A DNA stretch of 30,238 nucleotides from Tieghemiomyces parasiticus (taxonomy: Eukaryota; Kickxellomycota; Dimargaritomycetes; Dimargaritales; Dimargaritaceae). Of this stretch, positions 11,601 through 28,249 are shown one piece after another; the first letter of the stretch is position 1, and the number at the start of each line of letters is the position of its first letter. The notes below the pieces were generated by a model, which searched no databases, was not told the DNA's origin, and saw only the letters and a program-made list of their open reading frames with translations. The position numbers and the translations under genes are program-made. The stretch spans positions 1 through 30,238 of the forward strand of contig JANBPT010000573.1 of the NCBI GenBank assembly GCA_027575765.1, in the 5' to 3' direction.

Positions 11601-14600
11601 CGAGGGCGAGCTATCAAAGTCTATGATACCAGCAAGCGCCGCAGGGGTGCCGTACTGGAATATCTGCGCGATACTGACATGGATGCCATGGTCACGGCAC
11701 AGTGAGGAGAGCCGGATGGCCGAGATGGAGTCGCCACCCAGTTGGAAGAAGGACTCATGGATGTCGATCTGGGAGGCTGACATGTTAAGAACCTGGGCCA
11801 TGGTGTCGACGATTAGGAGCTGTACCTCGTTCTCCGGCGCAGTCACCAGTCGGTCGGATTTGTGGCAGACCAAAGAGGGCAGGAGGCCAAGCAGTCGGCG
11901 TTTGTCGGTCTTGCCGTTCGTATTAAGCGGTAGTTCAGTAAGCGGGAAGAAGGCACTAGGCACCATGTACGGCGGAAGGCGGGCCGCCGCGTGCGCCCTC
12001 AGGCTCGATGGAGCAACGGAGTCGGGACAAACAAACGCATACAGCTTACCAGATGAAAAAACCACTGCGACCGAGCTGACCTCTAAGCACTGACCCAGGA
12101 CAGCTTCGATCTCCCGGGGCTCCACACGATGGCCGCGAACCTTGACCTGATCGTCACTGCGGGCAAAGTACTCCACCGTCCCGTCCAGGAGCCAGCGGCC
12201 CATATCGCCCGTACGGTACAGGTAACCACTTCCGGTGTACGGATTGGGAAGGAGGGCCTTAGAATTAAGATCGGGGCGGTTCACATAGCCGCGGGTGACG
12301 CAGATACCGCCGACGTAAATCTCTCCAGGTACGCCGACCGGTACAGGGCGTAGCTTGTGGTCCAGGATGTAGCACTCAGTGTTGGGAAGCGGGCGGCCGA
12401 TGGTGACAGGGCCGCCAGTGATGAATTGCGCAGCGTGGCATACGAAACACTCAGTAGGGCCATACATGTTGGTGACGGGACAGTGGCTTGACCAGCGCTC
12501 GGCAAGAGGACGAGGCAGGGCCTCTCCAGCAGCAATCACACGGCGTAGGTTAGGGTACTTGGTCGGGTCGAGAGTGGCCAGGACGGAGGGCGTGGCCATT
12601 AGGACGTCGACCTTGGGCAACGTGTCCAGGAGGTCGTTGCGCAGTACGACCGTAGAACCGTTGCACACGGTGGCCAGGATCTCAACGAGGCAGCAGTCGA
12701 AGGTGAGGGCCATGTTCTGCATCACCCGCATTCCCGATCGGATGGCAATGACCTCCGGCGACTGCTGGACGAAGTTGGCCATGACACGGTGTTCCAGTTG
12801 GACACCCTTAGGTTGCCCTGTTGTTCCAGACGTGTAGAGGATATGGGACAAGTCGGTGGGCTGGACGATGGGAAGTCCAAGGTCCGTCGATTCACTGCTG
12901 TCGTTGATCAGTAAGGTGTCGAGAGAGTCCGTGGCCACCCCTGTGCCATGGCGAATGGCTTCCACCTTTTCCACGTCGCCAATATTGTACAGGATACGTT
13001 GGATTCCGCAGTCACGGGCAATGAACTGCAGACGGTCGAGGGGAAGGTTAGCATCTAAAGGCACAAATGAAGCACCTGCTAAGTGTACGCCCAACATAGC
13101 GGCGGCCGTACTAGGCAGACGGTCTATGAGTAGGCCAACCGGCTCTTCTCGCTGGACTTCCTGGGAGAGGAGATGGCGGGCAATGACCCTGGACTTCTCC
13201 AGGAGCTCCCGGTAGGTCCAGCTAATGTTACCCGAGACGGGGTCGTCGTACTCGACAGCGGGGTGGTCAGGGGTTCGCTCAGCTTGCTTAGTGAACAGCC
13301 CGGGAATACAAGTGTCAAAGTCGATAGGCTTAGTAGGGCGCGCCATGTTAACGGTTAAGCTCTGGAGCTCGGTACAGGTGAGCAGGTCCAGGTCAGCCAG
13401 ACTAGACGAACCGCTGTGCTGCTGGAGAATATCCGCCATCTGACTTATAATAGACCGTAAGTGTCCACCTAGAGCCTCAATGTAGGGTTGGGCAAAGTCA
13501 CTCGTGCTCCAGTTAAGAGCGGCTGTCAGCTGGTCATGCTCAACGTGGGTAATCACCGTCAGCGCATACTCCGTCGATTCGACTGCTTTGAGGTCTGAAA
13601 ACGTGACTGCCTGATCGTCGCTGTCCATGCCAGTGTTGGGGTAGTTTTCATAGACCAGCATCGTGTTGAACATGTCAGTGACTCGAAGGTCGCCCTCCAC
13701 CCAACAGTTCAGATCAGCAAGGTGACTGTGCTCCACGGCGACCAGTCGTTGGGTTTGCGCATTGATGCCCTGGAGAAAGCCCTTAAGTTCCATATCTGCT
13801 CCTATAGTTACACGACACGGTACGGTGTTGATCAGGCAACCTACGACACCGTCAACACCGGGCAAGTCCAGGGCACGACCCGACACAGTATTGCCGAACA
13901 CAATGTCGGATAAGCCGGTGTAGCGGTGGAGGAGGTAGGCCCAGGAGGCCTTGAGCAGGGTGTATATGGTCAACCCGTAGTCTTGAACCAGGGCCTGAAG
14001 GTGGGCCACGTCATCATGGATCACAATATGGTACTCGGTCCTGGTTGAGGAAGCAGCGGGGGCTTTCGGCAAAAGCAGCATCGTTGGTTGCTCGATACCT
14101 CGCAAGTAGTCCCCCCATACAGTCCGCGCCTCCTTATCATCCAGGTTGCCGATGTGCTCCACGTAGTCGGAAAATTCTACCGCGGGAGATAAACTGGCCG
14201 ACGGACCAGACGAGAGGAAGTGGCGCAGTTCCTGTGTAAAGATGCCAAACGACCACCCATCGATCAGCGCGTGGTGAATCGTCATGATCATGCGAGTGCT
14301 ATCCTGGGTGACCGGTGCAACGCAGTAGCGGAGTAGCGGTTGATCCGGGGTGAAGCCCAGGGCCTTGTCGCTTCGTAGGTAATCCTCCTCGTTCTGTACA
14401 CCGACCTCTGACCAGCACCCAATTGCTCGCCAGCCGAATCGAGGCCGCCGTGACACCACCTGGATGCCATTGCTCCGGGCGTTGCTGAAGGAGGTGAGAA
14501 AGACGGTGCGCAGGATGGAGTGGCGGGCAACGACTGCCTCGAGGGCGTGAAGGAGGACGTCGCTGTCGCTGACACCGTTGATGGTCATGGCGAACTGGAG

Positions 14601-17600
14601 AAGGTATTCGGTGGGGTCCTTGGCAGTGGCCGTCCAGAGTCCCTGCTGCATGGGCGTCATGGGGTACAAATTTTCCACCTCGTCAACGGTGAGTCCCAGG
14701 GTGGGGAGATCGGCAACGATCTTGGCCATGTCACCCTGATTGGCCTCGAGCAAAGGGAAGTCTGACGGCACCCACAGACCAGCAAGGTCGAGGGTCGCTA
14801 TTTCAGCCAAATACTTGCGTACCTGGTCACCCAGGGCCGCCACGGTAGCAGTTGGGACGACCTGCGGGCAGTAGTTGACGGTCAGCTGCAGGCCGGTACT
14901 GGTTTGCCATCCGAGGACCTCCAGTACCTGCGGGCGCAGCTCCTCATCACCACCAATGGGGATTAGAGGGAGGAGGTCGTGGCGGACGATCCAGGGCGCC
15001 TTCCCATGGCAGGTGAGGGCACGGTCATCGGTCGTTCGGCCGAGGAAGTTAAACACGACCTCCATGGGGTGGTAGGCGGCAGTCGCTTGAGAGCTTGGAT
15101 CGAGTGGTGCCTTCGGCCAGTCGGTTTCTAGGCCGTGGTGTCGTAGACTCCGCCGGGTGTGCTTGATTTGGTGGAGATGATCGCTAACACAAGTCGACGA
15201 AGTATTGGTCACCGTGACGGGCAGGATAGTGGTAAACCAGCCCACCGTGCGACTCAGATCCATACCCTCGTGCCAGGGGTGGCGGCCGTGGGATTCCGTA
15301 TGCACCGTAGTGGTGGGAGAGTGGGTCACCACGGCCAACGCCCCACAGAGGGCGGCCAGGAGGAGCTCGTCGAGGCGGAATGAATCCCCGGAAACCTGGA
15401 TAAGTGCCTCGGTTACATCGGTTGGGATCTGAACAGTGTGGCTGATCTCATTCCCAGCCGTGTTGGCCGGTAGTGCTGTCAGTGGACAGAGCGAGAGTGG
15501 CAACGGGTAGACCAACACGGGCTCAGGGTCCAAGTGGGCCACGCTTCGCTCCCGACGCCTCCGGTCGAGCTCCGAGGCCCAGTTGGCGAAGGGCAAGGAG
15601 GGTGGCAGGGGTGTAAGGTCGTCTAGCAGTGAAGTTAGGTCTTCCAGGAGGATGGACCAGGACACGAGGTCCACGACCAGGTGGTGTATGGTCAGGAAGA
15701 GCAGGGTTGGTGATGAACGACGGCCGTTCTCGGGAGCACCCAGGTGAACGAGTGCAGCGGCGACGTTGCGGCCCTGGTGAATGTCTATGGACTGCTGCAC
15801 TTGATAGCAGCATTGGGATAGCTCAGATTCGACACAGGTGACCTCGTGGACCTGGCTGGACAGAGTGGGAAAGGGAGGCGGAATGGTTTGGGACCATTGT
15901 CCAGTGGGGTCACGGCGGAACTGACTGCGCAGCACAGCGTGGTGATTGACCACGCGGAGCAGGGCCCTACCGAGCGTGTCACGTGAGACGGGGCGAGTGA
16001 GCTCGAGCAAGAAGGACTGGTTGAAGTGGCTGAGGCTACGGAACCCCTGGGCAAAGAACCAGCGCTGGATCGGGGTCAAAGGGAACGAAACTCCGTAAGG
16101 AATAGGGGCCAACCCGGAAGTCGTGGACTGGACAAGGCGTTCCATGGTGGTCGCTGCTGTGGACAGGGGCCGACTCTTAAGCAGTATGGGAACCGGGAGC
16201 CGGTAGCCTAACTGTCGACACCGCGCTGAGACCTGGATGGCCGAGATCGAATCGCCGCCGAGCCTGAAGAATGGGAGGTTGTCGGTAACCGGGTCGTGAG
16301 CTAGACCTAACGTCTCGACCACTGCGGTCCAAAGCACCTGCGACTCGGGTGACATTACATGCTCGCCCGCCAGTGTTGTACCCATTTCTAGGATTGACGC
16401 CTGGTACTTTAGGAATAAGGCAACTAGGGCCTGGCGGTCGACCTTGCCGTTGGTCGTTAGAGAGATATGGTCGAGGCCCATGATATGGCTGGGTACCATG
16501 TAACTCGGCAGGACCTCCTGCAGGGCCGATTTGACAGATGCTGTATCGAACTGTCCAGGGCATACAAAAGCCACCAGGGTGCGCTCATGGATAAGGACAT
16601 GAGTGTCTTGTACACCCGGTAAGTTGAGAAGTGCCCCACGCACCTCGGCCAGTTCGATACGGAATCCACGCAGCTTGACCTGGTCGTCACGGCGGCCCAG
16701 ACACTCCACCTCGCCGGTAGGCAGCCAGCGGCCGAGATCGCCGGTGCGGTACACAGGGCCGGATGAATAAGGCAGGCGAACAAACTTCACCTCGTTGAGA
16801 TCAGGCCGGTTGACGTAGCCCGCACTGACACCCAGGCCGCCCACACAGATCTCGCCGACGCTGCCGATGGGTACGAGCTGGTCGTGCTGGTTAACGATGT
16901 AGCATTCGCTGCCGGCGATGGGCCGGCCAATGGTGATGGGTTTGGCAAGCTGGGCCGTCAGGGTATGGCTAATGACAGTGACCTCGGTGGGGCCGTAGAG
17001 GTTCTGTACCTCGCAGTATGGGAGCCACTTGGCTGCCAGTTCAGTCGGCAGTGCCTCGCCCGCGCTCATGACCCGGCGTAGGTTAGGGTAGATCGTAGGG
17101 CTTAGGGAGCCCAAGACGGAAGGGGTTAGGAAGACGCCGTCGACGGTATGTAGAGCGGCAGGCATGTCGCCGTCGCTGAATACCAGCGTCGAAGACGTGC
17201 AGAGCGGGGACAGGGCCACCAGTATGAACACGTCGAAGCCAACGGCCATGGTCTGCAAGTAGCGTGTCCCAGGTTCCGGACAGAGCGTAGTCTCTGGTGC
17301 CAGGAGCAGGTTAGTCAGGCTGGCATGGCGGATTGTGACGCCCTTGGGCTGACCCGTGGTGCCCGAAGTAAATAGAATGTATGCCAGGTCTTCAGGGTGA
17401 TGGCAGTAAGGGGAGAGGGCAGAACCAGAGTCTAGCTCAGAGTTTAGGAGTTTCAGGCCTGGTAGGGCCTCCGTCCAGGTCACTCCGGTTTCAGTCATGT
17501 TCAGGACGACCGTGCATTGGGCGGTCTCAACCATGTAGCACTGACGCTGCTGGGGCAGGGCACTGTCCACGGGTACATAGACGGCCCGGAGTAGCCAGAG

Positions 17601-20600
17601 GGCCAACATGGCCATGACGGTGGCTGGACGGCTCTCTACGATTACTGCTACCCGGTCCTGCACTCCGATGCCGCGGTGCTGAAGGGCCCACGCCAGACTG
17701 TTGACCCGGGCGTCCATATCAGTGTAGTTCACAGTCTCCAACTGGGACTCGAGGGCCACCGTGTGAGGACTGCGCTGGACGCTGTCACAGACTAAGCTAA
17801 TGACACTGGTGCTGGTATCAGAAGGGTCGTACTCGCTGGGGCTCCGACCAAAGTCCTCTAGTAGGAGATGCTCCTCCGTCGGACATACCAAAGGGACCGT
17901 GGTCAAAGGTGAGGTGCTGGTGAGGGCGACTTGACAGTAGTACAGCAGGTTGGCCCCCAGGCGCTCGATGGTGGCTGAACCAAAAAGGTCCGGGTTGTAC
18001 TGGAGGGTCATGCCGTGGCTGGGACCGGAGAGACTGATTCGGAAGATGATATCATGCCGAAGGGCAGGGCGGGACTGGGCTTCAACATCCCATTCGACAG
18101 GGTCGACTGCGATACCCACACGGACTGGATGCCAGAGCGGGTAGGCCGGCTCGCGGGGAAGACCAGCGTACGGGTCGTAGTCTGGGGTCAAGTGGTCCAC
18201 GGAGCGTTGCAGCTGCTGCGTAAGGGCAGTGCTAAGGTCATCTAGACTGGACGCACTTGCGGCACCTGGGACTAGCACCGGACAAGCCAGGTGACCTAGG
18301 GAAACAGTATACGTTTCTCTACGACATACGCTATGGTTAAGTAGCATGTCAACCAGGACGTCATCGGTACCACAGATCCTTCCGAGATAGGACCCCACAA
18401 TGGCCGTCCACAGCCCAAGTGGTGCGACAGGGTTCCCTTCAGTAGGGCAGGATAATCCGCGGATAACCTCCTGGGCCAAGCCGAACCGAAGGCAGGCCGA
18501 ACTAAACGTGGGCACACGAGTGCGAGGACGGTCGAGCGGTAGTTTCAGATCCGCAGAGGCTTCGGCCATTGTCTCCGTCCAGTAAGCACGGACCGAGCTA
18601 TCTGATGGAAGGCGGCCGACGGTGGCTGTGCGTCCCATGGCGAGCGACGGGCTAACGTCAAACACCTGACCGTCATGTTTGGCTCTGAAGGCCAGCTGCA
18701 GCTCCTCGGTAAGGAGCTGGAATAACATCTCAGGTGCCAGGATCTGGTGGATACGGACCACCAGACTGGGTGGTTCCGGCTGGTAGAGAACGGCCAACAT
18801 ATCCGTGCTGACCAGGACCTTCCCAGCTGCTTCGAGGCCATTTCTACGCAGGGACTGGGAACCGACGGTAGCCTGGGAAGCCGAGGACAGACGCTTCGGA
18901 GAAAGCAGATAGGCTACGAGCCGGCCCTCCTCCTTACGGACCACGGTGCGCAGCCAGTCCACTCGGCTTAGGAGCTGGTCGAGGACCCACTGGACGTCCG
19001 AATGGGTAAGCTGGTGGGGAATACTGAGCTTGGCTTGGTGGTAGAACTGACCAGGGTCCTCCGAGAGTTGACAGGCGAGCCACACCTGGGCCTGGTAGGG
19101 TGTCACCTTCATCGGGCGGATCAGCTCAGACTTGGGCTCGTTCGATTGGCCTTCTGGTGTACGAATAGGCGATAGCGAAGGGCTGGAACGTTGGATCACC
19201 AGTGTCAAGCCGGCCAAATCATCGCAGGCCAGGACGTTCCGCAAGTCAAGGGTGGCCCTGAAACGTTGGCTGATGCGGTGCTCCAGCTGGAGGAACAGGG
19301 TGGGTCTAGCCAGCACAGACACCCAGGCATCCTCACCATCAGGCATCTCATCTCCGGTTCCCAGGAGCAGGTCGGTACAGGTCACGGCGAGCCACCTACC
19401 CACTGTGTCTAAGGACGACCCCTGGTTCTCTGTGTCCAACACATGAAGGTATGCCTCACCTAGCCGAGTAACCTCACCCTCACTGGCGCTGGACAAGTGC
19501 GGGTAAGCCTCAAGTGAGATAAAAGAGACAGGCACAAGGTCGGCAGGGAGGTTCACACCGGCCAGCAGAGGTCCGAATGACTCGCACGCAGTCTCGGGTG
19601 CTGAGACACGAGTTACGATGCGACCGCCGTGGATGCTGACAGAATAGGGTGAGGGCAGCCCTTGTTTGGCCAGGTAGTGATCTAGGACAGCAAGAGGCAG
19701 CTGAACACCGTCCACCGTAATCAGTCGCCCAGGACAGTTCTGGGTCGGATCAGGAGGCGAATTGAAAACCTGGGTGATTGTGGTGTCCGCAGTCGCTTTT
19801 GCGAGCTTGATTAGCACGGAGCTGACCTGCTGTACCAGTTGAATAATGTCGGCCTCACTGCAAAACATGCGCCTGTAGAAGCACTTGACGCCGACGGCAT
19901 GCGGTCCGTCGACGAAATCCAGGGTGAGCGGGTACTCGGTAAACTCGTGCACCCGTACCAGCTCCAGGGTCATGTCCCCGGCCTGATGTGAACCCTGGGG
20001 GAAGTTCTCGAAGCCACCGAGCACATGGAATAGAGGGGAGGCCAGGGTTGGACTGCACCAGGCCTGGACTTTGGCAAGACTGGTGTGCTCGAAGGGGATC
20101 ATCCCGGTGGCGTCGGCCTGGAGCTGCTGGAGCCATTGGCCGATGCGTTGGTCCGTCAGGCGGAACCGCAACGGAACGGTGTTGAGGCAGGGACCGACGA
20201 CGGTGTCAATGTCCGCCACGTCCAGGTTACGACCTGACACTACAAAGCCAATGACGAGGTCGTCCCGGTCCAGGTACTGGGCCAAGACGAGGGCGTAGGC
20301 GGCCTTTAGGAGGGTCGAGAGGGTCACACCAAACTGCTGGGCGGCATTGTGTAAGCGTGACTTATCGGCGTTGAGGGTACAGTGGTACTCGGCAAAGCCA
20401 TGCTCACCCGTGAGCTCCGTACTGAGCATGGGTGCTGGTGTGGGCTGAACACCCCGTAAATACTCAACCCAGAACGCACACGCCTCGTCTTGGTCCTGAT
20501 TGGCCACCTGTTCGACCACGGTGTTGAATGAAGGTGAGGCCAGTTGGTCTGCCATGTCTGGAGAGGCGTACAGCTGGCCCAGGTCACGCAGCAGGAGCGG

Positions 20601-23600
20601 GATTGACCAGCCGTCGACCAGGGCGTGGTGGATGGCCAGGACCAGCAGGTACTCGTTGGAACGCTCGGTGGGAAATATGTTAACCCGGACCATGGGCCTG
20701 GTCATGTCGAAGCCCAGGGCACGGTTTTCGTTGAAAAAGTCGGTCAGGGAAGGAAGGGGTGCCTCGGCTAGACTCCAGGCCAGCGGTGCGCGGTGTAGAA
20801 CAACCTGGGCAAGTCCGTTGCCAAGTGGTGCGACGGTCGGAATGAAGACGGTGCGCAGGACGCTGTGGCGCTGTGTTAAGTTCGCCAAAGCTTGCTGGAG
20901 CTGACTGAGGACTACTTCACCAGAGAGGGTTATGGCGGCCTGGACCAGGTAGGCCGAGTGGTCTTGCAGCGTAGCAACGAGCAGACCGCCCTGCATGGGG
21001 GTACATGGCAGGATAGCGTCTATGTTGGAAGCAGCAATGCCGCGTTCCTCCAGGTCGGCCAGCAGGGTGTCGAATTCCTGGGCGGTGGGCTGGAGTAGCG
21101 GCGCATCGAATCGAGTGAGAAGCGGCTGGACGGAAGCCGTTGGGGTGACGGCCAGGTGCTCGAGGTCTTGGCGCCACAGGCGGATCAGTTGTTCAGCCCA
21201 TTGGGTCCCATACACCCGCGGATTGTACTCCATGACCAGGCGCAGCCGGTCCTGGTTGACGAGGGGCATGGGGTTGATGTCGAAGATGACGTGTTCGTCG
21301 GGGGCAAAATCGTGCAGGCCGAAGCAGTCATCCCACTCGATGCTAACCGCACCACTGTTTGCGCCACCTGCACCCGCATTGCCGAACCGACCAAAGTAGT
21401 TGAACTGGACGTCGAGGCGCTCGGGGGTTTTGGCCAGGAGCTTGGCCCGCTCAGCTGGGTCCGCCCCCGGCATGTGGCGGAGTAGGCTGTAGGGGAAACC
21501 ACGCACGGGGATCTGCTGCATCGCCTCCTTGGTGTTATGTAGGGTGGCTAGGATCGAACTGCCCAGGGGTACGTCCAGGACCAAGGGGTACAGGACGGTG
21601 AACCAGCCTACGGTGCGACTCACATCCATGGCGTCCGACCAGGGCTCGCGACCGTGGCCCTCCATGACAAAGGAGACCTGGGTGGTACCCAACGCCTGGC
21701 AGTAGGCCCGGGCAAAGGAGGCCAAGAGAATGTCGCGCGGAGTGACACGCCATTGTGGCGCCAGTTGCAGCAGGAGCCGGGTGGTGAACTCCCGGTCGAA
21801 TTCGTGGGATATGGATAGGCGGGCAGCGGTGGGCACTGGGTCCAGGACCTCTGGGGGAGGCAGGAGTTGGCGGTTATCCACCATCATGCTCTGCACGGGC
21901 CAGGCATCGGCAGTGAGGGTCCGGGCGTAGTCGTCCAACTGGCTGCACCAGGTCTGGAAGGACAGGGTCTTGGGCGGCAGCTGACCCCCGGTAAGCAGGG
22001 TCTGCAGGTCCTCGATCAGGACACGCCAGGAGACCAGGTCAACTAGGGCGTGGTGAATGGTCCAGAACAGACGGGCTGGCTCGGACTCGGCGCCAGTGTG
22101 GATCAGACAGGCTGCCATGACAGGGCCGTCCGTGAGGTGCAGGCTGGACTGGACCTTCAAAATGAAGTCGGCATAGTCCACCTCGTTCACGGTGGCCTCG
22201 ATCACAGGGATGTGGCTGGGGATGGCCTCGGTAGTTGGGATGTACTGTTGCCACGCACCTGCCTCATTCAGCCTGAACCTAGCACGCAGGATGTCATGGT
22301 TGTTGGCCAGTTGGACTAGAGCGTGGCTAATCTGTCCGATTGTAACCGACGGATCCACACGCAGGGTGAAGGACTGGTTGAAGTGGTGGGGGTTGCGGAA
22401 CGGCAGGCCATAGAACCAGCGCTGAATCGGGGTTTGGTCGATACAGCCCTGGACCTGGTGCTGATTTTTCTCGGAGGCCGCCGTGGCCAGCGGGGTCAGT
22501 CTGGCGGCCAAGGCGCGGAACTGGCGACATTCGTAGATGAGCGGCACGGTGGCCTTGAACCCGAGCTGCCGGCATTTGGATACGAGCAGGATGGCCGAAA
22601 TGGAGTCACCGCCAATACGGAAGAAGTCGTCGGTTGTCCCAATGTGGTCACCAGGGAGCTGGAGGATCTGGGCCCAGGCCTCACGCAGGCGCAGCTCCAA
22701 GTCAGTGAGGCTTTGGGATTGTGCGGGGACTATCTCCAAGAAGGACTCAGTTGCGGTCGGTAAAGCCTTGCGGTCGACCTTACCGTTGGCGGTCAGCGAG
22801 AGGCGGGCTACGGGGACGACACGATCGGGTACCATAAACCTGGCCAAACGGCTGCGGAGGTAGTCTAGCAAGGCCACGGTGTCCACCGACTGGGGTTCCA
22901 CAAACAAGGCCAGAGAATTACTTTGAACAGAAGCCACGGCGAGCTGAGCGGCGGGAAAACTGGTGGCGGCAGCCTCGACCTCCTCGAGTTCGATACGGAA
23001 GCCCCGGAGTTTGATCTGGTGGTCCATGCGACCCAGCAGGTCGACGTGGCCATGGGACAGCCAACGGGCTCGGTCACCCGTCAAATACACGCGACCGGGA
23101 CCGAACGGATTAGCGATGAACTTGTGGGCGGTGAGGTCCGGCAGGTTGCAGTAACCACGGGCAATGCTCAGACCACCGATCAGAAGCTGGCCCGGGGCAC
23201 CCACGGGCACTAACCGCAGGTGGTCGTCCACAATGTAGCATAAGTAGTTAACACTGGGTGGACCGACCGAGATGTAGTTAGGATCAGCGAGAACTAGGGT
23301 ATTGGACGTCACCGTAGTTTCGGTGGGCCCGTAGACGTTGGCCAACTTGCAGTGGCCATGCCATTTGGCATGGAGGTCAGCAGTGACGTGTTCTCCGGCC
23401 AAGACCAGAAACGCTAGCTGAGGATACTGACCAGGGTTCAAGCGGGCGGCAAACGACGGCGTGACGATAGCCGAGTGCACACTCTGAAGGTCAGCCAGTA
23501 AGTCGGCACCGGGAATGACCACTGTCCCACCTTGGCAAAGAGTCCTGAGGAGACTCCATAGGATACCGTCGAAGCCCAGTGAGAGGACTAGTAGGTCACG

Positions 23601-24980
23601 CTTGCCGGGTCCATAGTCGCCTGCATAGGTCAGATCGGTAGCAAAATTAGCCAGATTGCCGTGCTCGACCATAACGCCCTTGGGCTGGCCTGTGGTACCC
23701 GAGGTGTACACAATGTAGGCCAAGTCAGTGGGCTGTGGGCGATGGACAGCAGACGGTGCACCGGCCCCATTCGTGGCTGCAATAGATGGGGTCTGTTTGT
23801 CGACTTGCAGGGTGGGAAGCGTGAGGTCTCCCAGAAGAGCCTGGGTCGTTGATGTAGTCAGGACCAGCGTAACCGCGCTATCTTGGACGATGTAGCGGAT
23901 ACGCTCTTCGGGGTACTCCGGGTCAATGGGCACGTAGGCAGCGCCAGACTTGAGCACGGCAAACAGGGCTATCACAAACTCGATGGACTTGGGCAGGAGG
24001 AGGGCGATACGAACCTCGGACTGGGCTCCATGGTCGCGGGTAAGCATCAGGGCTAGGGCCGAGGTCATCAGGTCAAACTCGGCGTAGGTGACGGTGCGGC
24101 CCTCGTGGTTCAGAGCGATACCGTCAGGGGTTCTGCTCGCCCATTTACCGACTAGGAGGTGAACAGGGGTATTGACTGCATCAGGGTGATCGATGGTGCC
24201 GGCGAACTGCAGGAGGCGTTGGCGCTCGATCCCATCTACCCAGGCCACATTGGCGATGGCTAAGTGTGTGAGCTGTTTGGGATGCACCATCGCCTCGGCC
24301 AATGCACGGACCACGATACAGAATTGGCGTCCGAGTTCCTGCACCGCTGCCTCGGCCACCTGGGTGCGGTCGAAGGCCAGACGAACCTCTAGACTACCCG
24401 GGACCACCTGCCAGGAGAGGACGAGAACGGCCCGAGTCATCGTCGCCAACATAGTAAGGGAGGCCTGTTCAACGCTAACGCTAGACTTGTGGCTGGGGTT
24501 GAGACTCAATGGGTTGTGGTCCCAAGACTGAGTAGATGAATAGTTGGCGTAGCTAACTAGGACGGTGTTGAGCTGGCCCTGGTCGCTAGCCTGTACCGGC
24601 CACTCCTGTTGATGCAAAGGATGATATGAAGAAGAGATCGGATGTCCGAGGGCCGAGGCAAGCTTGACACCGGGGTCAAGGCGCAGACCACACACGGTGA
24701 GACTGCTGGCCGGGAGTTCAGGGTCCAGCGGCGGCGACAGGGCCTGGACATGGCCGAAAGCAACTTGTTCAGCACCGGTGTAGCGGGACAGGAGGATGCC
24801 CCAGGCCACCTTGCAGAGTCTGTCGGGGTGGAGGTTGGTTGACAAGGGAGTCCCCGCCGAAACCTGGCCGTAACCAGGCTCAGGGTGAAGGGGCTTGACC
24901 AGGGGAACGGCAGTGGTCGGGGGAGGACCGTCCACGTTGTCGGCAGAGGCGGGAGGATTAGGATCAAGGACAGCCAGCAT
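2607..24980 (-). CDS. Five-module nonribosomal peptide synthetase, 7,457 aa, single exon
   Basis: This is a giant cytosolic assembly-line enzyme that activates amino acids as adenylates, loads them on phosphopantetheine arms and condenses them into a peptide. Domains in order (residues): partial C 40-255, A1 270-742, T1 758-832, E1 843-1278, C2 1300-1735, relic block 1736-2384, A2 2385-2852, T2 2875-2950, E2 2965-3398, C3 3405-3855, A3 3885-4365, T3 4385-4455, C4 4468-4910, A4 4938-5415, T4 5430-5508, E4 5517-5965, C5 5970-6425, A5 6445-6920, T5 6937-7010, terminal E-like 7022-7445. All five A domains keep the A10 lysine and all five carriers keep their serine. The start is the first Met after an in-frame TGA at 25065-25067 and has A at -3 (ACCATG). 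The 28 open codons before it contain no Met. The stop is TAG at 2607-2609. No TE or reductase domain follows. The product is unknown, and a short 5' exon cannot be excluded. Confidence 0.97.
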   Translation of the reverse strand: MLAVLDPNPPASADNVDGPPPTTAVPLVKPLHPEPGYGQVSAGTPLSTNLHPDRLCKVAWGILLSRYTGAEQVAFGHVQALSPPLDPELPASSLTVCGLRLDPGVKLASALGHPISSSYHPLHQQEWPVQASDQGQLNTVLVSYANYSSTQSWDHNPLSLNPSHKSSVSVEQASLTMLATMTRAVLVLSWQVVPGSLEVRLAFDRTQVAEAAVQELGRQFCIVVRALAEAMVHPKQLTHLAIANVAWVDGIERQRLLQFAGTIDHPDAVNTPVHLLVGKWASRTPDGIALNHEGRTVTYAEFDLMTSALALMLTRDHGAQSEVRIALLLPKSIEFVIALFAVLKSGAAYVPIDPEYPEERIRYIVQDSAVTLVLTTSTTQALLGDLTLPTLQVDKQTPSIAATNGAGAPSAVHRPQPTDLAYIVYTSGTTGQPKGVMVEHGNLANFATDLTYAGDYGPGKRDLLVLSLGFDGILWSLLRTLCQGGTVVIPGADLLADLQSVHSAIVTPSFAARLNPGQYPQLAFLVLAGEHVTADLHAKWHGHCKLANVYGPTETTVTSNTLVLADPNYISVGPPSVNYLCYIVDDHLRLVPVGAPGQLLIGGLSIARGYCNLPDLTAHKFIANPFGPGRVYLTGDRARWLSHGHVDLLGRMDHQIKLRGFRIELEEVEAAATSFPAAQLAVASVQSNSLALFVEPQSVDTVALLDYLRSRLARFMVPDRVVPVARLSLTANGKVDRKALPTATESFLEIVPAQSQSLTDLELRLREAWAQILQLPGDHIGTTDDFFRIGGDSISAILLVSKCRQLGFKATVPLIYECRQFRALAARLTPLATAASEKNQHQVQGCIDQTPIQRWFYGLPFRNPHHFNQSFTLRVDPSVTIGQISHALVQLANNHDILRARFRLNEAGAWQQYIPTTEAIPSHIPVIEATVNEVDYADFILKVQSSLHLTDGPVMAACLIHTGAESEPARLFWTIHHALVDLVSWRVLIEDLQTLLTGGQLPPKTLSFQTWCSQLDDYARTLTADAWPVQSMMVDNRQLLPPPEVLDPVPTAARLSISHEFDREFTTRLLLQLAPQWRVTPRDILLASFARAYCQALGTTQVSFVMEGHGREPWSDAMDVSRTVGWFTVLYPLVLDVPLGSSILATLHNTKEAMQQIPVRGFPYSLLRHMPGADPAERAKLLAKTPERLDVQFNYFGRFGNAGAGGANSGAVSIEWDDCFGLHDFAPDEHVIFDINPMPLVNQDRLRLVMEYNPRVYGTQWAEQLIRLWRQDLEHLAVTPTASVQPLLTRFDAPLLQPTAQEFDTLLADLEERGIAASNIDAILPCTPMQGGLLVATLQDHSAYLVQAAITLSGEVVLSQLQQALANLTQRHSVLRTVFIPTVAPLGNGLAQVVLHRAPLAWSLAEAPLPSLTDFFNENRALGFDMTRPMVRVNIFPTERSNEYLLVLAIHHALVDGWSIPLLLRDLGQLYASPDMADQLASPSFNTVVEQVANQDQDEACAFWVEYLRGVQPTPAPMLSTELTGEHGFAEYHCTLNADKSRLHNAAQQFGVTLSTLLKAAYALVLAQYLDRDDLVIGFVVSGRNLDVADIDTVVGPCLNTVPLRFRLTDQRIGQWLQQLQADATGMIPFEHTSLAKVQAWCSPTLASPLFHVLGGFENFPQGSHQAGDMTLELVRVHEFTEYPLTLDFVDGPHAVGVKCFYRRMFCSEADIIQLVQQVSSVLIKLAKATADTTITQVFNSPPDPTQNCPGRLITVDGVQLPLAVLDHYLAKQGLPSPYSVSIHGGRIVTRVSAPETACESFGPLLAGVNLPADLVPVSFISLEAYPHLSSASEGEVTRLGEAYLHVLDTENQGSSLDTVGRWLAVTCTDLLLGTGDEMPDGEDAWVSVLARPTLFLQLEHRISQRFRATLDLRNVLACDDLAGLTLVIQRSSPSLSPIRTPEGQSNEPKSELIRPMKVTPYQAQVWLACQLSEDPGQFYHQAKLSIPHQLTHSDVQWVLDQLLSRVDWLRTVVRKEEGRLVAYLLSPKRLSSASQATVGSQSLRRNGLEAAGKVLVSTDMLAVLYQPEPPSLVVRIHQILAPEMLFQLLTEELQLAFRAKHDGQVFDVSPSLAMGRTATVGRLPSDSSVRAYWTETMAEASADLKLPLDRPRTRVPTFSSACLRFGLAQEVIRGLSCPTEGNPVAPLGLWTAIVGSYLGRICGTDDVLVDMLLNHSVCRRETYTVSLGHLACPVLVPGAASASSLDDLSTALTQQLQRSVDHLTPDYDPYAGLPREPAYPLWHPVRVGIAVDPVEWDVEAQSRPALRHDIIFRISLSGPSHGMTLQYNPDLFGSATIERLGANLLYYCQVALTSTSPLTTVPLVCPTEEHLLLEDFGRSPSEYDPSDTSTSVISLVCDSVQRSPHTVALESQLETVNYTDMDARVNSLAWALQHRGIGVQDRVAVIVESRPATVMAMLALWLLRAVYVPVDSALPQQRQCYMVETAQCTVVLNMTETGVTWTEALPGLKLLNSELDSGSALSPYCHHPEDLAYILFTSGTTGQPKGVTIRHASLTNLLLAPETTLCPEPGTRYLQTMAVGFDVFILVALSPLCTSSTLVFSDGDMPAALHTVDGVFLTPSVLGSLSPTIYPNLRRVMSAGEALPTELAAKWLPYCEVQNLYGPTEVTVISHTLTAQLAKPITIGRPIAGSECYIVNQHDQLVPIGSVGEICVGGLGVSAGYVNRPDLNEVKFVRLPYSSGPVYRTGDLGRWLPTGEVECLGRRDDQVKLRGFRIELAEVRGALLNLPGVQDTHVLIHERTLVAFVCPGQFDTASVKSALQEVLPSYMVPSHIMGLDHISLTTNGKVDRQALVALFLKYQASILEMGTTLAGEHVMSPESQVLWTAVVETLGLAHDPVTDNLPFFRLGGDSISAIQVSARCRQLGYRLPVPILLKSRPLSTAATTMERLVQSTTSGLAPIPYGVSFPLTPIQRWFFAQGFRSLSHFNQSFLLELTRPVSRDTLGRALLRVVNHHAVLRSQFRRDPTGQWSQTIPPPFPTLSSQVHEVTCVESELSQCCYQVQQSIDIHQGRNVAAALVHLGAPENGRRSSPTLLFLTIHHLVVDLVSWSILLEDLTSLLDDLTPLPPSLPFANWASELDRRRRERSVAHLDPEPVLVYPLPLSLCPLTALPANTAGNEISHTVQIPTDVTEALIQVSGDSFRLDELLLAALCGALAVVTHSPTTTVHTESHGRHPWHEGMDLSRTVGWFTTILPVTVTNTSSTCVSDHLHQIKHTRRSLRHHGLETDWPKAPLDPSSQATAAYHPMEVVFNFLGRTTDDRALTCHGKAPWIVRHDLLPLIPIGGDEELRPQVLEVLGWQTSTGLQLTVNYCPQVVPTATVAALGDQVRKYLAEIATLDLAGLWVPSDFPLLEANQGDMAKIVADLPTLGLTVDEVENLYPMTPMQQGLWTATAKDPTEYLLQFAMTINGVSDSDVLLHALEAVVARHSILRTVFLTSFSNARSNGIQVVSRRPRFGWRAIGCWSEVGVQNEEDYLRSDKALGFTPDQPLLRYCVAPVTQDSTRMIMTIHHALIDGWSFGIFTQELRHFLSSGPSASLSPAVEFSDYVEHIGNLDDKEARTVWGDYLRGIEQPTMLLLPKAPAASSTRTEYHIVIHDDVAHLQALVQDYGLTIYTLLKASWAYLLHRYTGLSDIVFGNTVSGRALDLPGVDGVVGCLINTVPCRVTIGADMELKGFLQGINAQTQRLVAVEHSHLADLNCWVEGDLRVTDMFNTMLVYENYPNTGMDSDDQAVTFSDLKAVESTEYALTVITHVEHDQLTAALNWSTSDFAQPYIEALGGHLRSIISQMADILQQHSGSSSLADLDLLTCTELQSLTVNMARPTKPIDFDTCIPGLFTKQAERTPDHPAVEYDDPVSGNISWTYRELLEKSRVIARHLLSQEVQREEPVGLLIDRLPSTAAAMLGVHLAGASFVPLDANLPLDRLQFIARDCGIQRILYNIGDVEKVEAIRHGTGVATDSLDTLLINDSSESTDLGLPIVQPTDLSHILYTSGTTGQPKGVQLEHRVMANFVQQSPEVIAIRSGMRVMQNMALTFDCCLVEILATVCNGSTVVLRNDLLDTLPKVDVLMATPSVLATLDPTKYPNLRRVIAAGEALPRPLAERWSSHCPVTNMYGPTECFVCHAAQFITGGPVTIGRPLPNTECYILDHKLRPVPVGVPGEIYVGGICVTRGYVNRPDLNSKALLPNPYTGSGYLYRTGDMGRWLLDGTVEYFARSDDQVKVRGHRVEPREIEAVLGQCLEVSSVAVVFSSGKLYAFVCPDSVAPSSLRAHAAARLPPYMVPSAFFPLTELPLNTNGKTDKRRLLGLLPSLVCHKSDRLVTAPENEVQLLIVDTMAQVLNMSASQIDIHESFFQLGGDSISAIRLSSLCRDHGIHVSIAQIFQYGTPAALAGIIDFDSSPSTTMAYQPFELVAFSGVAIEDLTAEIATSLGVETEAIEDILPVSSLQQGFLVSTLKDPSAYMVQMTYDLTGPLDVAKLHHSWSQVVRSHQILRTKFLVPADQSQHAFLQVVLRDTDFEWTYHDQPLTSLGQAEHHHLAADRARGFTLTGPLLRFAVYRGPANSHLFCTTFHHALLDAWSESTVMAESLEYYHGVKTQPRPQYHEFIQHLTRIDQEGMAAFWTTNLDGVKLHPIVQFPKESNATPTEHGEICHPVSTSLLAIKQFCRGMGLTVNSLLRAVWALTLARYLGENEEVTLGVLVSGRNVPVPGIEGMVGMCINALPLRVRVDRNHTITGFLRQVNADSGALTAYEQCSLVDIKRWAKLDADSDLFTSLLVYDNYETTTPTRTDQINYVPRSGQNFTEYAYTANFYDQDDTLMLNLSYQTRYCNPSYAHYLVHFIDHCLAAIVSGHTEQLGNILTLPAAEQALVSQWSDGITIDFPQKDWLAHQFFTQHLATRADAIALESASDQFTYAEVYHRACAIAAALHTQGARCGDRMALLFTRCPEFIFSYLAVLLLGGVCVPMDANNAPDRLLYMVDLLDDPWVVTHSTASDLAAELGLTQERVIHADRVLTNPTQGPILQLPTEHNPDSLAYIVFTSGTTGQPKGVQVTHRSLANFILAFSERLQLLPDCRFLQVSNLSFDALLLEIFGAFHAGGTLVLQDGELLDDLHRITACLLISSVLATLDADSYPKIVTLITGGEVLPTAVAEKWTGRVRLHNFYGPSEATIASHSKLIYPSDMVTIGTTLANVQCHILDDQLHAMPIGRSGELCIGGEAVSRGYWRRPELTDQAFVANPFGAGQLYRTGDMGCWLANGEVQVLGRKDFQVKLHGFRIELGEIESTCQAFPGVANAVALVKDKCLAVYVSPTDVKVEALQEHITAKLPHYMVPKVVVSMEALPLTSIGKVDRRALQALPLPQEPDLAGSDDLPVSKTFATLRHALSETLNVDPARVVHSASFLRLGGDSISAIQFSSRCKKYGLKLTVADILKHPMLTRLEQCAELILDTSESKPQMDPSGPLSPTAVMRQVLPSMGNVNHFNQSFLLSCRSPPTVVTFKEAIRALVVHHDILRLCLTDRDGKSSMAVLPLPEDTSTDAFLTRFASVTEESLLLDDYDDWVLRTQQSINVEHGPVLACSLLAVDAQSYVYLTVHHLCIDFVSWRIMLEDLETLLQGQLLQPKTLSFREWAMLVNDYAPTLADDLWPDHGPISTLPIDILPVLAAPVTYRTVQSVGRNLGLELSQILYEQAAPRVDASPQELMVASFVMALTTTFQLDSLEVQMEGHGRQPWRSDLDVSRTLGWFTAIYPVAFHTGQSEHYASLPQVLRPLAHVKQRLHSIPDSGFPYGLLKYLKGRDSSQLTSDKSLTQPTGVMFNYAGRFNQLEASDAFWSPAVLSNGWSHALSLDEVVQHALSASCDYDGKHGLTLNLDYSTMMYHESTANTITNLWLDNLQQLIQAALASPLPCRTASDYGLARLSEPAFGSLVQNTLPKLGLPVDEVDDLYPCLPIQEGLLLATLKDPAAYLVQSVYNIQGPLDTGRLQEAWAAMSQQHAIFRTQFLLGLPDTPFANLQLVRKHSGARWLVADWSDLDPEPAQAEYLRLEREQGFDLRQIPIRFGLFHLAPDHHRLIVSVHHAILDGWSGGLFTNALLLNYAGRVAPPAGQVKELVAHIQAGDTTQAERFWAAQLDGIESPSLLVDPYCVPDLTVKPSDAVYYGSLARTLELGDQVVDFVQSYGVTVSTFFRAVVAIVLHRHTGSEHPVFGTVVSGRNVAVAQVESTIGPCISTIPCRARIGRALTVGDLLQALHHDGTAAYDFEHCRLTDIHRWSGMSPEQPLFNVLLVYQNYPEVQSDMDLPIRLSLLDSHDPTDVPLTLIAAHQGTQLYVKAGFQTGVFSTDYVERFVNHLETTIRSLVTTSPSDLVTSLSMLSESEHELLTSDWARNPTNLPTGSYAHEDFLFCAQSNPDVIALRDGNVEYSYGQLHQMSKHLAHQLNLTSGCGPGRVVGILADNSVELVVSQLAVWMTGSAFVVIAPDYPTERQLVILEDAACVAVVGSSNHLSSLTVAITIPRLTIQRTDLLRNAPVRDWEGAQAGPTDIAYIIYTSGSTGVPKGVMVEHGALANYLRGFRDVIDMPVGSVVPTVLAPMFDVSISEIWTTLSCGGTIVIAKPETCHSALAISTRAGFTPSLLSLFEPTDFPNLTSVLVIGEACPKTLVDKWAPYVEFINLYGPAEATIATHHAKLRVGDTVTIGRPLPNTVGLLLDEYLRPVPVGVTGQLYLGGKGLARGYLNHPELTAEKFITWPVTGERLYQSGDLARWLPDGQVECLGRIDHQVKVRGFRVELGEVEAFLESHPTVTQACVLVQDTHLVGYVCPALSGDSETVLDWLRSCLPHYMVPSALVGLAEFPRTRVGKVDRKALPPFHFNRSPTDTDLSTLSPVESQLIRTVADCLRLDASIIRLDSTFYQIGGNSLSAIQVVAQCQRNGLHLAIADLNRNSTLRQVARLCAAVDETTTVSTRPDHEVIGCPRLTPGQLAFFSMPFTSPNQVALPVLFKSDRNFPEAQWRTMVRRMVELHPMLRGLFYLDDQTGTMTYDVGEYPLHDHYRFELHHVKDFATVMSMLPSLLLELDIESGPLSTFHVFDLGHEQYFFHCVHHLASDYFSYKVFAEDLTRLLLDQQVEPPTVSCQAWAEYLHQTAQDLDLDALTVPPPLPDLAVRLRGEVAMPESTPGGRNPECLVCLDISPSTLTSAANRFGATPMELLITALHVAYQEVFHFNVMGLAFMTHGRQPVGDTAFDLSRTVGFFAHYVPVVLDAPRAAGFRTTLHHTQKMLETGIEDGVKLTLVRYLRDFTDPTQRRPYEIDPFFGFSYLAPTKDFVTSNGSQPLLQELTDVMTELRAHRADTSPYSFELAVTHEGDRLDLLVIGQRNKGIPPMVQRLLSVWSQSVHHMVVTPDSM
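2646..3917 (-). other. Terminal E-like / condensation-superfamily domain, catalytic Glu missing
   Basis: Residues 7022-7445, ending 12 residues from the C terminus. Family features: LTPGQLAFFSMP for the opening motif, HHLASDYFSY with H7154/H7155/D7159, THGRQP at 7285-7290 and FDLSRTVGFF at 7296-7305. The EGHGR glutamate of E1 and E4 aligns with Met7284, HFNQSF is absent, and no FNYxGR is recognisable near FFGFSYLAP (7365-7373). It is unlikely to epimerize by the usual two-base route. With no TE or reductase after T5, a role in releasing or cyclizing the peptide is possible. A structural leftover is the alternative. Confidence 0.8.
3951..4172 (-). other. T5: terminal peptidyl carrier domain (GGNSL)
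   Basis: Residues 6937-7010 with TFYQIGGNSLSAI and Ser6971. It differs from the GGDSISAI of the other four. Its GGNSL form is closer to carriers that do not serve an E domain, although an E-like domain follows. Confidence 0.92.
4221..5648 (-). other. A5: adenylation domain, divergent from A1-A4
   Basis: Residues 6445-6920. The A3 core is YTSGSTGVPKG at 6602-6612, whereas A1-A4 all read TSGTTGQPKG. Also LYGPAEA at 6727-6733, YQSGD at 6810-6814, RIDHQVKVRGFRVE at 6829-6842, and VGKVDR with Lys6913. Hand-derived code: D6648, V6649, S6652, G6683, L6704, I6706, L6727, I6735, A6736, K6913 (DVSGLILIAK). Ile at position 301, normally Gly or Ala, is unusual and would narrow or reshape the pocket. Substrate unknown. 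Confidence 0.9.
5706..7073 (-). other. C5: condensation domain following E4
   Basis: Residues 5970-6425. DCL-type opening 'DLYPCLPIQEGLLLATLKDP' at 6000-6019, HHAILDGWS at 6132-6140 intact, VVSGR at 6264-6268, 'CISTIPCRARI' at 6282-6292. It joins the tetrapeptide on T4 to the residue on T5. Confidence 0.92.
7086..8432 (-). other. E4: epimerization domain
   Basis: Residues 5517-5965. Motifs: LSPTAVMRQVLP in place of the usual TPIQxWF opening, HFNQSF at 5538-5543, HHLCIDFVSW with H5651/H5652/D5656, MEGHGRQPW with Glu5781, DVSRTLGWF at 5793-5801, and FNYAGRF at 5872-5878. The catalytic His and Glu are present, so residue 4 is predicted to be D. The degenerate first motif is the only oddity. Confidence 0.91.
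8457..8693 (-). other. T4: peptidyl carrier domain
   Basis: Residues 5430-5508 with SFLRLGGDSISAI and Ser5466, immediately ahead of E4. Confidence 0.93.
8736..10169 (-). other. A4: adenylation domain
   Basis: Residues 4938-5415. Motifs: FTSGTTGQPKG at 5097-5107, FYGPSEA at 5221-5227, YRTGD at 5304-5308, RKDFQVKLHGFRIE at 5323-5336, and IGKVDR with Lys5406. Hand-derived code: D5143, A5144, L5147, L5177, I5198, G5200, F5221, I5229, A5230, K5406 (DALLIGFIAK). The usual TPS after position 278 reads ISS here, so the pocket floor may differ. A hydrophobic substrate is likely. Confidence 0.9.
10251..11579 (-). other. C4: condensation domain, HHxxxDA variant
   Basis: Residues 4468-4910. The opening 'DILPVSSLQQGFLVSTLKDP' at 4498-4517 is DCL-like although no E domain precedes it. 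The catalytic motif is HHALLDAWS at 4630-4638, with Ala4636 in place of Gly. The His pair and Asp are kept, so it is probably active. VLVSGR follows at 4757-4762. I see no HHxxxxGD motif near the start (SHQILRTKF instead), so it is not an obvious dual E/C domain. Confidence 0.9.
11616..11828 (-). other. T3: peptidyl carrier domain without a following E domain
   Basis: Residues 4385-4455 with SFFQLGGDSISAI and Ser4418. Its motif is the same GGDSISAI as in T1, T2 and T4, which all precede E domains, but here the next domain is C4. Confidence 0.93.
11886..13328 (-). other. A3: adenylation domain
   Basis: Residues 3885-4365. Motifs: YTSGTTGQPKG at 4049-4059, MYGPTEC at 4172-4178, YRTGD at 4255-4259, RSDDQVKVRGHRVE at 4274-4287, and NGKTDK with Lys4357. 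Hand-derived code: D4095, C4096, V4099, M4128, I4149, A4151, M4172, V4180, C4181, K4357 (DCVMIAMVCK). A Cys at position 236 is unusual. The pocket is nonpolar and the substrate unknown. Confidence 0.9.
13416..14768 (-). other. C3: condensation domain following E2
   Basis: Residues 3405-3855. DCL-type opening 'NLYPMTPMQQGLWTATAKDP' at 3437-3456, HHALIDGWS at 3569-3577 intact, 'KASWAYLLHRYTGLSDIVFG' at 3677-3696 and TVSGR at 3698-3702. It joins the D-dipeptidyl donor on T2 to the residue on T3. Confidence 0.92.
14787..16088 (-). other. E2: epimerization domain
   Basis: Residues 2965-3398. Motifs: LTPIQRWFF, HFNQSF at 2985-2990, HHLVVDLVSW with H3099/H3100/D3104, TESHGRHPW with Glu3229, DLSRTVGWF at 3241-3249, and FNFLGR at 3310-3315. 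The catalytic Glu is kept, but the following Gly is Ser (ESHGR rather than EGHGR). It is probably active, giving a D residue at position 2. Confidence 0.9.
16131..16358 (-). other. T2: peptidyl carrier domain
   Basis: Residues 2875-2950 with FFRLGGDSISAI and Ser2911. It is followed by an E domain, in keeping with its GGDSI form. It is the first intact carrier downstream of C2. Confidence 0.93.
16425..17828 (-). other. A2: adenylation domain
   Basis: Residues 2385-2852. Motifs: FTSGTTGQPKG at 2537-2547, LYGPTEV at 2661-2667, YRTGD at 2744-2748, RRDDQVKLRGFRIE at 2763-2776, and NGKVDR with Lys2846. Hand-derived code: D2583, V2584, L2587, F2617, M2638, A2640, L2661, V2669, I2670, K2846 (DVLFMALVIK). 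The pocket is entirely nonpolar apart from the invariant Asp and Lys, which points to an aliphatic or other hydrophobic residue. Confidence 0.9.
17901..19118 (-). other. Relic condensation domain, HHxxxDG replaced by HQILAPE
   Basis: Residues 1955-2360. The opening 'VTPYQAQVWLACQLSEDPGQFYHQA' matches the LCL-type start LSFAQQRLWFLDQLEPxxxxY. The catalytic motif reads HQILAPE at 2078-2084, so the catalytic second His is Gln2079, Asp is Pro2083 and Gly is Glu2084. Later condensation features persist in weakened form (LGLWTAIVGSYLGRICGTDDVLVDMLLN at about 2188-2215). It cannot catalyse by the known mechanism but may still serve as a spacer or docking platform. Confidence 0.75.
19185..19412 (-). 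other. Relic carrier domain, GGxS replaced by ARPT
   Basis: Residues 1857-1932 keep the shape of a carrier: an acidic GEDAWVSVL run, then 'ARPTLFLQLEHRISQRF' aligned to 'GGHSLLATQLVSRIRQRF', then LDLRNVLACDDLAGL matching LPLRxLFExPTLAGLA. The serine that takes the phosphopantetheine arm is Thr1894 (codon 19299-19301) and both glycines are lost, so it should not be primed. The homology to a carrier is strong in pattern but unverified by any profile search. Confidence 0.68.
19446..19733 (-). other. Relic adenylation C-terminal subdomain (core deleted, catalytic Lys lost)
   Basis: Residues 1750-1845 align with only the last 100 residues of an A domain. VDGVQLPLAVLDHYLAKQG corresponds to the A8 region (VRGFRIELGEIEAxLxxHP), 'GGRIVTRV' to the (D)GRLVAYV strand, 'LPADLVPVSFISLEAYPHL' to LPxYMVPSxFVxLxxLPLT, and 'SEGEVTRL' to (T)NGKVDRxAL. 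The A10 lysine is Glu1836. The roughly 400-residue core with the AMP-binding motifs is absent. It cannot adenylate anything. The assignment rests on hand alignment. Confidence 0.7.
19776..21083 (-). other. C2: condensation domain following E1
   Basis: Residues 1300-1735. The start 'AILPCTPMQGGLLVATLQD' at 1322-1340 is the DCL-type opening (YPLTPLQEGML class), as expected after an E domain. The catalytic HHALVDGWS is intact at 1451-1459, and the VVSGR segment is at 1580-1584. It should take the D-residue from T1. Its nearest downstream carrier is dead (see the relic block), so its acceptor is probably T2, about 1,175 residues further on. Confidence 0.9.
21147..22454 (-). other. E1: epimerization domain
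   Basis: Residues 843-1278. It opens with TPIQRWF, then HFNQSF at 866-871, HHALVDLVSW with H976/H977/D981, MEGHGREPW with Glu1107, DVSRTVGWF at 1119-1127 and FNYFGRF at 1193-1199. The His and Glu pair that handles the alpha proton in E domains is present, so it should convert the T1-bound residue to a D/L mixture for C2. HHxxxDLVSW instead of HHxxxDGVSW is, as far as I recall, usual in fungal E domains. Confidence 0.93.
22485..22709 (-). other. T1: peptidyl carrier domain
   Basis: Residues 758-832. The phosphopantetheine site is FFRIGGDSISAI with Ser793. The GGDSI form is usual for carriers that hand over to an epimerization domain, and one follows directly. This carrier holds the first aminoacyl residue. 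Confidence 0.93.
22755..24173 (-). other. A1: adenylation domain, loading module
   Basis: Residues 270-742 form a complete adenylation domain: A3 core YTSGTTGQPKG at 425-435, A5 VYGPTET at 549-555, A7 YLTGD at 632-636, A8 RMDHQIKLRGFRIE at 651-664, and A10 NGKVDR with Lys734. By hand alignment to GrsA-PheA the specificity residues are D471, G472, W475, I505, V526, A528, V549, V557, T558 and K734 (DGWIVAVVTK). The DxW start and small residue at position 301 suggest a bulky hydrophobic or aromatic amino acid. That substrate class is an inference; I do not recognise the exact code. Confidence 0.9.
24216..24863 (-). other. C1: partial N-terminal condensation domain (C-terminal half only)
   Basis: Residues about 40-255 match only the second half of a condensation domain. 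'KVAWGILLSRYTGAEQVAFG' at 57-76 corresponds to the usual K(A/S)xWxLLLxRYTGxxDxVFG segment, and the rest follows the family's late helices and strands. The HHxxxDG half is missing, and the VSGR that normally follows VFG is replaced by HVQAL. Truncated C remnants ahead of a loading A domain are common in fungal synthetases, so this is probably a non-catalytic part of the initiation module. No HHxxxDG motif was seen on the minus strand within about 1 kb upstream. Confidence 0.75.
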
Positions 24981-28020: not shown

Positions 28021-28203
28021 AGAAAGGGAGAGGGAGAGGGAATGGGAATGGGAATGGGAATAGGAATAGGAATAGGAATAGGAATGTGAATGGGAAAGGG
28101 AAAGAGAAAGAGAAAGGGAAAGGGAAAGGGAAAGGGAAAGAGAAAGGGAAAGGGAAAGAGAAAGGGAAAGGGAAAGAGAGGAGGAGAGAGGAGGAAGGGG
28201 AAA
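28021..28203 (+). repeat. Purine hexamer repeat: GGAAT(G/A) units, then GGGAAA/GAGAAA units
   Basis: The first part (to about 28090) repeats GGGAAT and GGAATA. The second part (28092-28203) is an uninterrupted run of 112 purines built mostly of GGGAAA with GAGAAA variants. The two related unit families side by side suggest slippage growth from a shared hexamer. Such mirror-like homopurine tracts can form triplex DNA. The Ser-Leu and Phe-Pro frames across it are translation artefacts. Confidence 0.95.
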
Positions 28204-28249
28204 TGTGGTGAATTCACCACAACCTCCACCCTCCATTATGCTGAAATCG

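Follow-up and report, generated by a model that had tools for sequence, protein, structure and literature searches.

A module stripped of its catalytic motifs is conserved between C2 and A2 in a family of non-ribosomal peptide synthetases of Tieghemiomyces parasiticus

Layout of the synthetase

The window, the whole stretch of DNA analysed here (30,238 nucleotides of contig JANBPT010000573.1 of the mycoparasitic fungus Tieghemiomyces parasiticus), encodes a non-ribosomal peptide synthetase (NRPS) in which a pseudo-module, hereafter the block, is found between the condensation domain C2 and the adenylation core A2. The main features are the following, the degenerate parts of the block being designated pseudo-A_C, pseudo-T and C0.

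2607..24980, minus strand: NRPS open reading frame of 7457 aa, with five A3 motifs and five GGxS carrier motifs
24156..24980, minus strand: half condensation domain (C-lobe only), N-terminal, before A1, residues 1-275, recognised by a profile match
21111..22433, minus strand: E1-like domain after T1, with HHALVDL at residue 976; limits approximate, set by eye
19776..21098, minus strand: C2, with HHALVDG intact at residue 1451
17829..19775, minus strand: the block (pseudo-module), residues 1736-2384
19440..19736, minus strand: pseudo-A_C, the C-terminal subdomain of an A domain from about the A8 hinge, with the A10 Lys changed to Glu (residue 1836, codon 19473-19475)
19188..19424, minus strand: pseudo-T, a helical carrier fold, with Ser changed to Thr (residue 1894, codon 19299-19301)
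17829..19127, minus strand: C0, a two-lobed condensation fold with HQILAPE (residues 2078-2084, 18729-18749) replacing HHxxxDG
16641..17828, minus strand: A2 adenylation core; 32 of the 34 A2-type copies listed adjoin an upstream C0 or its C-lobe

The initial annotation had read this region as an open frame in which the adenylation core is deleted and the A10 lysine, the carrier serine and the condensation motif are all substituted, and each of these points was borne out: the frame is open across residues 1736-2384, A_N is absent with Glu at the A10 place, Thr1894 occupies the place of the carrier serine and HQILAPE that of HHxxxDG. The marks of a working C-A-T module, namely A_N (in the window), the A10 Lys, GGxS and HHxxxDG, are all missing from the block.

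In profile-profile comparison, the N-terminal half C of the window matched the C-lobe columns of working C domains (P = 4.1e-9, 189 columns), and no match was found between the half C and C0 (P = 0.21). Starts of the half C type account for 46 rows in the genome, partial ones included. One NRPS frame of 7785 aa (C1142) has such a half C at its N-terminus (46%) and gave no block, C2-type or A2-type row; the 2.8 kb inspected there are A3-T3-C4-like. Elsewhere in the window, a terminal C-like domain near position 3500 (minus strand) displays HHLASDY instead of HHxxxDG at residue 7154, and a low-complexity purine/pyrimidine stretch occupies about 27600-28230, upstream of the NRPS gene, with a GC skew of 0.40 over 27001-28500.

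Fold of the block

The block consists of a probable A_C fold, a carrier fold and a C fold, in colinear order. Searches with the Pfam families proposed in the initial annotation upheld its domain assignment for Condensation, which matched all 26 full-length copies, and weakly for PP-binding (10 of 26, best E 0.014), and failed to do so for AMP-binding_C (none of the 26); in the window's own copy, the C domain was the only Pfam match. A profile built from the 26 copies matched C domains of the PDB with a best E of 3.8e-24, and its positions 69-467 matched the A-PCP-C chain of DhbF. The stretch 10-86 of the same profile falls on the A_C of Txo2 and is not significant alone (i-Evalue 14). When the first 200 or so residues of the block (10 copies) were compared with the five working A_C-T pairs of the window, the profiles aligned over 184 columns with P = 4.6e-5 and a probability of 68.5, against P = 0.27 for the control comparison with A_N.

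Structure prediction, also proposed at the outset, agreed with the domain reading: the AlphaFold2 model of the block (pLDDT 75.5, pTM 0.77) aligns to LgrA and DhbF chains over 684-719 columns (ranks 1-4). For pseudo-A_C, the fold is suggested by colinear structure alignments, including that to 6mg0_B, and, at the sequence level, by its joint profile match with the carrier part. The Pfam Condensation match and the two-lobed fold place C0 in the condensation superfamily; the X-domain structures 4tx2 and 4tx3 are among its structure matches, ranked below ordinary C domains. The similarity of the block to an A_C-T-C fold exceeds chance. The loss of A_N reaches to the hinge or close to it and leaves A_C almost whole, so that the deletion corresponds to one subdomain rather than to a vaguely delimited core.

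Copies in the genome and loss of motifs

A protein search of the source genome returned 36 places, none with an internal stop. Pseudo-A_C is included in 29 of them, 26 at full length and three partially, of which C1302 and C490 end at a contig edge and C556 runs into a stop after pseudo-T; the remaining seven match the C-lobe of C0 alone. In C556:44812-45444 (L045), no C0 match was found past the stop that closes the NRPS frame. Identity to the window among the 29 copies ranges from 28 to 100%: fourteen, the window among them, share at least 85%, and the remaining full-length copies fall to 51, 46, 42, 41, 34 and 28%. Thirteen copies of 85-89% identity with the same length and the same junctions lie on other contigs, and assembly collapse is therefore ruled out. 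Two further T. parasiticus proteins carry the block, P0125 and P0129, on contigs of 8712 and 6404 bases, respectively.

The copies are paralogues of one genome, so that gene conversion and some allelic copies are possible, and the copy count may include alleles. Dimargaris cristalligena belongs to the same order as T. parasiticus. D. cristalligena is described as possibly non-haploid (review, PMC10386755) and as having 21 predicted NRPSs (PMC7466969). The conservation that the initial annotation proposed to look for in orthologues was observed among same-genome paralogues; no orthologue from another species was found among the matches listed in the protein searches (120 of 268, 120 of 157 and 120 of 238), where all matches listed above the ordinary NRPS level came from T. 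parasiticus. In the last of these, many of the matches listed were Burkholderia pseudomallei NRPSs of the ordinary kind, 22-24% identical, and were left aside. In two of the searches, only candidates sharing most words were scored, and the most divergent T. parasiticus copies (28%) were themselves absent from the resulting lists, hence restriction of the block to this species is weakly indicated.

Motif positions were compared across 28 aligned copies, leaving out C1302, whose stretch is too short and which has D in place of the A10 Lys and T in place of the carrier Ser. Lysine is found at the A10 place in none of the 28 (D 14, E 9, G 2, C 2, S 1). The carrier serine place is occupied by V in 11, T in 5, A in 4, S in 4, I in 2, L in 1 and P in 1; in the four copies with serine (C627, C811, C47 and C556) no GG precedes it, and GGxS occurs in none of the 29. 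The condensation motif is intact in none of the 27 copies that span it: the second His has become Q in 24 and P in three, the first His is kept in 25 and replaced by L in two, and the Asp is retained in one. The most divergent block inspected, at C102:56450-57450 (L055), reads HVLIMDG and so departs from the motif in its catalytic second His alone.

Remnants of the adenylation core

Four genes (C604, C1169, C490 and C485) have, between C2 and pseudo-A_C, about 390-400 extra residues in open frame that represent a degenerate A_N core, designated pseudo-A_N.

L041:2815-4002 and L039:5908-7110: pseudo-A_N core of about 396 aa, with matches confined to four genes

About 94 residues near its start match the working A_N profile (P = 7.8e-7, probability 91.7), A6 to A8 are recognisable by eye, and the middle has no profile match; no A3 motif was found by pattern in the pseudo-A_N of P0222 or P0129. 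The C604 and C485 types are 30-33% identical to each other. In the C604-C1169-C490 trio, dN/dS amounts to 0.25 [0.15-0.42] for C2, 0.38 [0.27-0.53] for the block and 0.61 [0.40-0.94] for pseudo-A_N, with overlapping intervals.

The copies with pseudo-A_N are the missing intermediate between a full module and the block. Together with the five GGxS carriers of the window enzyme, they uphold the descent from a full elongation module put forward in the initial annotation. An intact ancestral module was not found among the genome rows listed, the nearest being the pseudo-A_N copies and C102 with its HVLIMDG. In a tree of 15 block rows, C102 being partial, the block rows cluster separately from six working A_C-T-C segments (100/100). 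Copies with pseudo-A_N are interspersed among copies lacking it, which implies at least two separate losses if regain is excluded; it is in this part of the tree that the program warns of long branches meeting.

Position and co-inheritance

Domains were assigned to the C2 type at 46% identity or more (the next row is at 36%; 95 rows listed) and to the A2 type at 327 bits or more (105 rows listed). The block lies behind all 27 C2-type domains listed, three of these blocks being partial; it follows directly (within 78 bases) in 23 and after an A_N-sized stretch in four. Upstream of 34 listed A2-type domains, the whole block adjoins directly in 26 and only the C-lobe of C0 in six. The other two, C102 and C486, are separated from a C2-like domain upstream by a gap of some 650 residues, and the one kilobase inspected in the C102 gap is a divergent pseudo-A_C-pseudo-T-C0. 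The block is found between C2 and A2 wherever both are present, and among the C2-type genes seen A_N has been removed repeatedly and the block has not. E1 is not constant, no E motif being present at that place in P0010 (C962).

The other two block copies, C753 and C675 (L028 and L029; P0126 and P0128), have the N-terminal half C within about 120 bases of the block; A1-T1-C2 is missing between the two and the block is retained. The initial annotation described the block as a spacer that C2 must bridge, and this holds in part: the reading is incomplete, since these two genes keep the block without a C2 before it. Seven other genes (C459, C1069, C554, C1, C478, C297 and C247; L046-L051 and L053) appear to start with the C-lobe of C0 at most about 80 residues past an in-frame stop; six continue into an A2-type domain and C247 lies at a contig edge. 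The genome search gave no match to the N-lobe of C0 in these seven, where an upstream exon could be too divergent. As they lack pseudo-A_C, pseudo-T and apparently the N-lobe, those parts are dispensable where C2 is gone as well.

Selection on the block

The block is under purifying selection, weaker than that on its flanks. Pooled over the 14 close copies, dN/dS is 0.40 [0.35-0.47] for the block, against 0.27 [0.22-0.33] for C2 and 0.29 [0.25-0.33] for A2, and an earlier, less complete run agreed. Within the block, pseudo-A_C is constrained no more weakly than the flanks (0.26 [0.18-0.38]), pseudo-T is the weakest part (0.55 [0.35-0.81]), and the N- and C-lobes of C0 give 0.33 [0.24-0.44] and 0.47 [0.37-0.60]. 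Among ten chosen pairs, not all independent, the block value lies between 0.25 and 0.56 in nine; the C1330/C489 pair gives 0.88 [0.43-3.11] at a dS of just 0.014. For the C753-C675 pair, the upstream flank (0.56) extends outside the gene and is uninformative. At the observed dS and on a star-like tree, neutral evolution would yield about 165 changes and 4.4-5.5 stops per lineage, that is 62-77 stops over the 14 copies; none is observed, and the matched length varies among them by one end residue only.

These values bear on the fossil reading of the initial annotation, in which the lost chemistry stands and the suggestion of recent decay is not supported: the dN/dS comparison it had called for returned a constrained block. 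With 29 copies, the same dead motifs and purifying selection, the block is one ancient pseudo-module. Recent or private decay is rejected on the basis of the 29 conserved copies and the dN/dS of 0.40.

Relation to known systems

N-terminal truncated C domains occur in fungal NRPSs of the cyclosporin and PF1022 type, the X-domain of glycopeptide NRPSs sits in the last module, and VibF C1 is a single domain of a bacterial siderophore enzyme. The truncated domains provide a half C before A, as at the N-terminus of the window enzyme and in the genes starting with the C0 C-lobe, whereas C0 in the window is internal and of full length. The X-domain resembles C0 in being of C type, nearest to LCL, in having a disrupted HHxxxDG and in serving a non-catalytic purpose (PMC8949500), and the inactive C1 of VibF, by the title of a work cited in PMC8795117, is a dead condensation domain kept structurally, for dimerisation. 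Unlike the X-domain, C0 lies between C2 and A2 and is accompanied by pseudo-A_C and pseudo-T; unlike VibF C1, the block is a whole module common to a gene family.

Fungal ferrichrome synthetases are reported to contain degenerate A domains (PMC2644324), and the dA of Schizosaccharomyces pombe sib1 module 2 is likewise a dead A domain kept in frame in a fungal NRPS. For the T and C adjoining it, charging by another A domain has been proposed (PMC2644324), whereas in the block none of A, T and C retains its chemistry and most copies have lost the A_N core. Dead A domains and inactive C-type domains are thus known already. The open-licence literature searched by title and start of abstract, like the passages searched in PMC10478498, yielded no conserved module that is dead throughout, which is no proof of novelty; no paper on a Tieghemiomyces NRPS was found in the same literature.

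Possible roles of the block

Retention under selection in nearly thirty sister enzymes suggests that the block is probably a structural part rather than debris. The account that we favour, by a modest preference, is that of an ancient C-A-T module whose adenylation, carrier and condensation chemistry would have been lost before the gene family spread in the genome, with A_C-T-C kept as a non-catalytic structural bridge. The chain would skip the block, C2 joining the T1 residue to the T2 residue, and pseudo-A_C and pseudo-T, with floppy linkers at both ends, may tether C2. The loss of one residue, from six to five, proposed in the initial annotation may have accompanied the change. C0 would occupy the position of a working C beside A2 and offer the usual C-domain partner surface. 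Such a platform for A2 is a best guess, prompted by the co-inheritance of the C0 C-lobe with A2 and by analogy to the half C before A1. Weighing against it, constraint within C0 is stronger on the N-lobe than on the C-lobe, and the half C shows no visible kinship with C0; AlphaFold2 gave a poor model for the C0-A2 pair (pLDDT 58.4, pTM 0.49), and the joint travel of C0 and A2 could reflect plain linkage. More specifically, and tentatively, the block may be a dedicated non-catalytic A_C-T-C scaffold, its A_N core dropped at the hinge more than once, kept between the first and second working modules of a large fungal NRPS family and governing how C2 gets to T2 or how A2 is kept in place.

The strongest rival, which we consider rather unlikely, makes the block a jobless passenger: as part of a giant protein, it has to remain in frame, soluble and folded, and this would suffice to bring dN/dS below 1 without any function of its own. 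Its constraint is indeed lower than that of both flanks, most of all in pseudo-T, and the C1330/C489 value of 0.88, with its very wide interval, points the same way. A passenger ought, however, to be deletable in frame, and the block stays in spite of two or more losses of A_N and one or more of the whole first module. It is present behind every C2-type domain listed and kept in C753 and C675, and pseudo-A_C is as constrained as the working flanks. This retention counts against a passenger without killing the idea.

Less probable still is a role of C0 in recruitment or oligomerisation, by which it would act like the oxygenase-recruiting X-domain of glycopeptide NRPSs or the dimer-forming inactive C1 of VibF. 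C0 is an inactive C-type fold with X-domain structures among its matches, but these rank under ordinary C domains and the place of C0 differs from that of the X-domain. The precedents are those of PMC8949500 and of the title cited in PMC8795117.

It is very improbable that pseudo-T or C0 still handles the chain in some copies by complementation: serine at the aligned site in C627, C811, C47 and C556 and the HVLIMDG of C102 would allow it, but the window has Thr, GGxS is absent throughout, and the catalytic second His is missing from all 27 spanning copies and from C102. The slightest chance goes to a true fossil, recently decayed by one internal deletion private to the window gene, which would fit the lost motifs and the sole Pfam match to the C domain in the window copy but not 29 stop-free copies, dead alike down to 28% identity, with a dN/dS of 0.40.

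Implications

Residue counts should not rest on domain-like blocks alone. Module deletion or fusion is a recurring difficulty in NRPS engineering. If the structural bridge that we favour is real, the family would be a natural assembly line in which a skipped module is not only tolerated but selected for. A dead full module, a block with A_N excised, enzymes that have lost their first module and genes reduced to the C-lobe coexist as stages in one genome. The family thus displays which pieces evolution dropped and which it kept, and is relevant to the engineering of NRPS modules.
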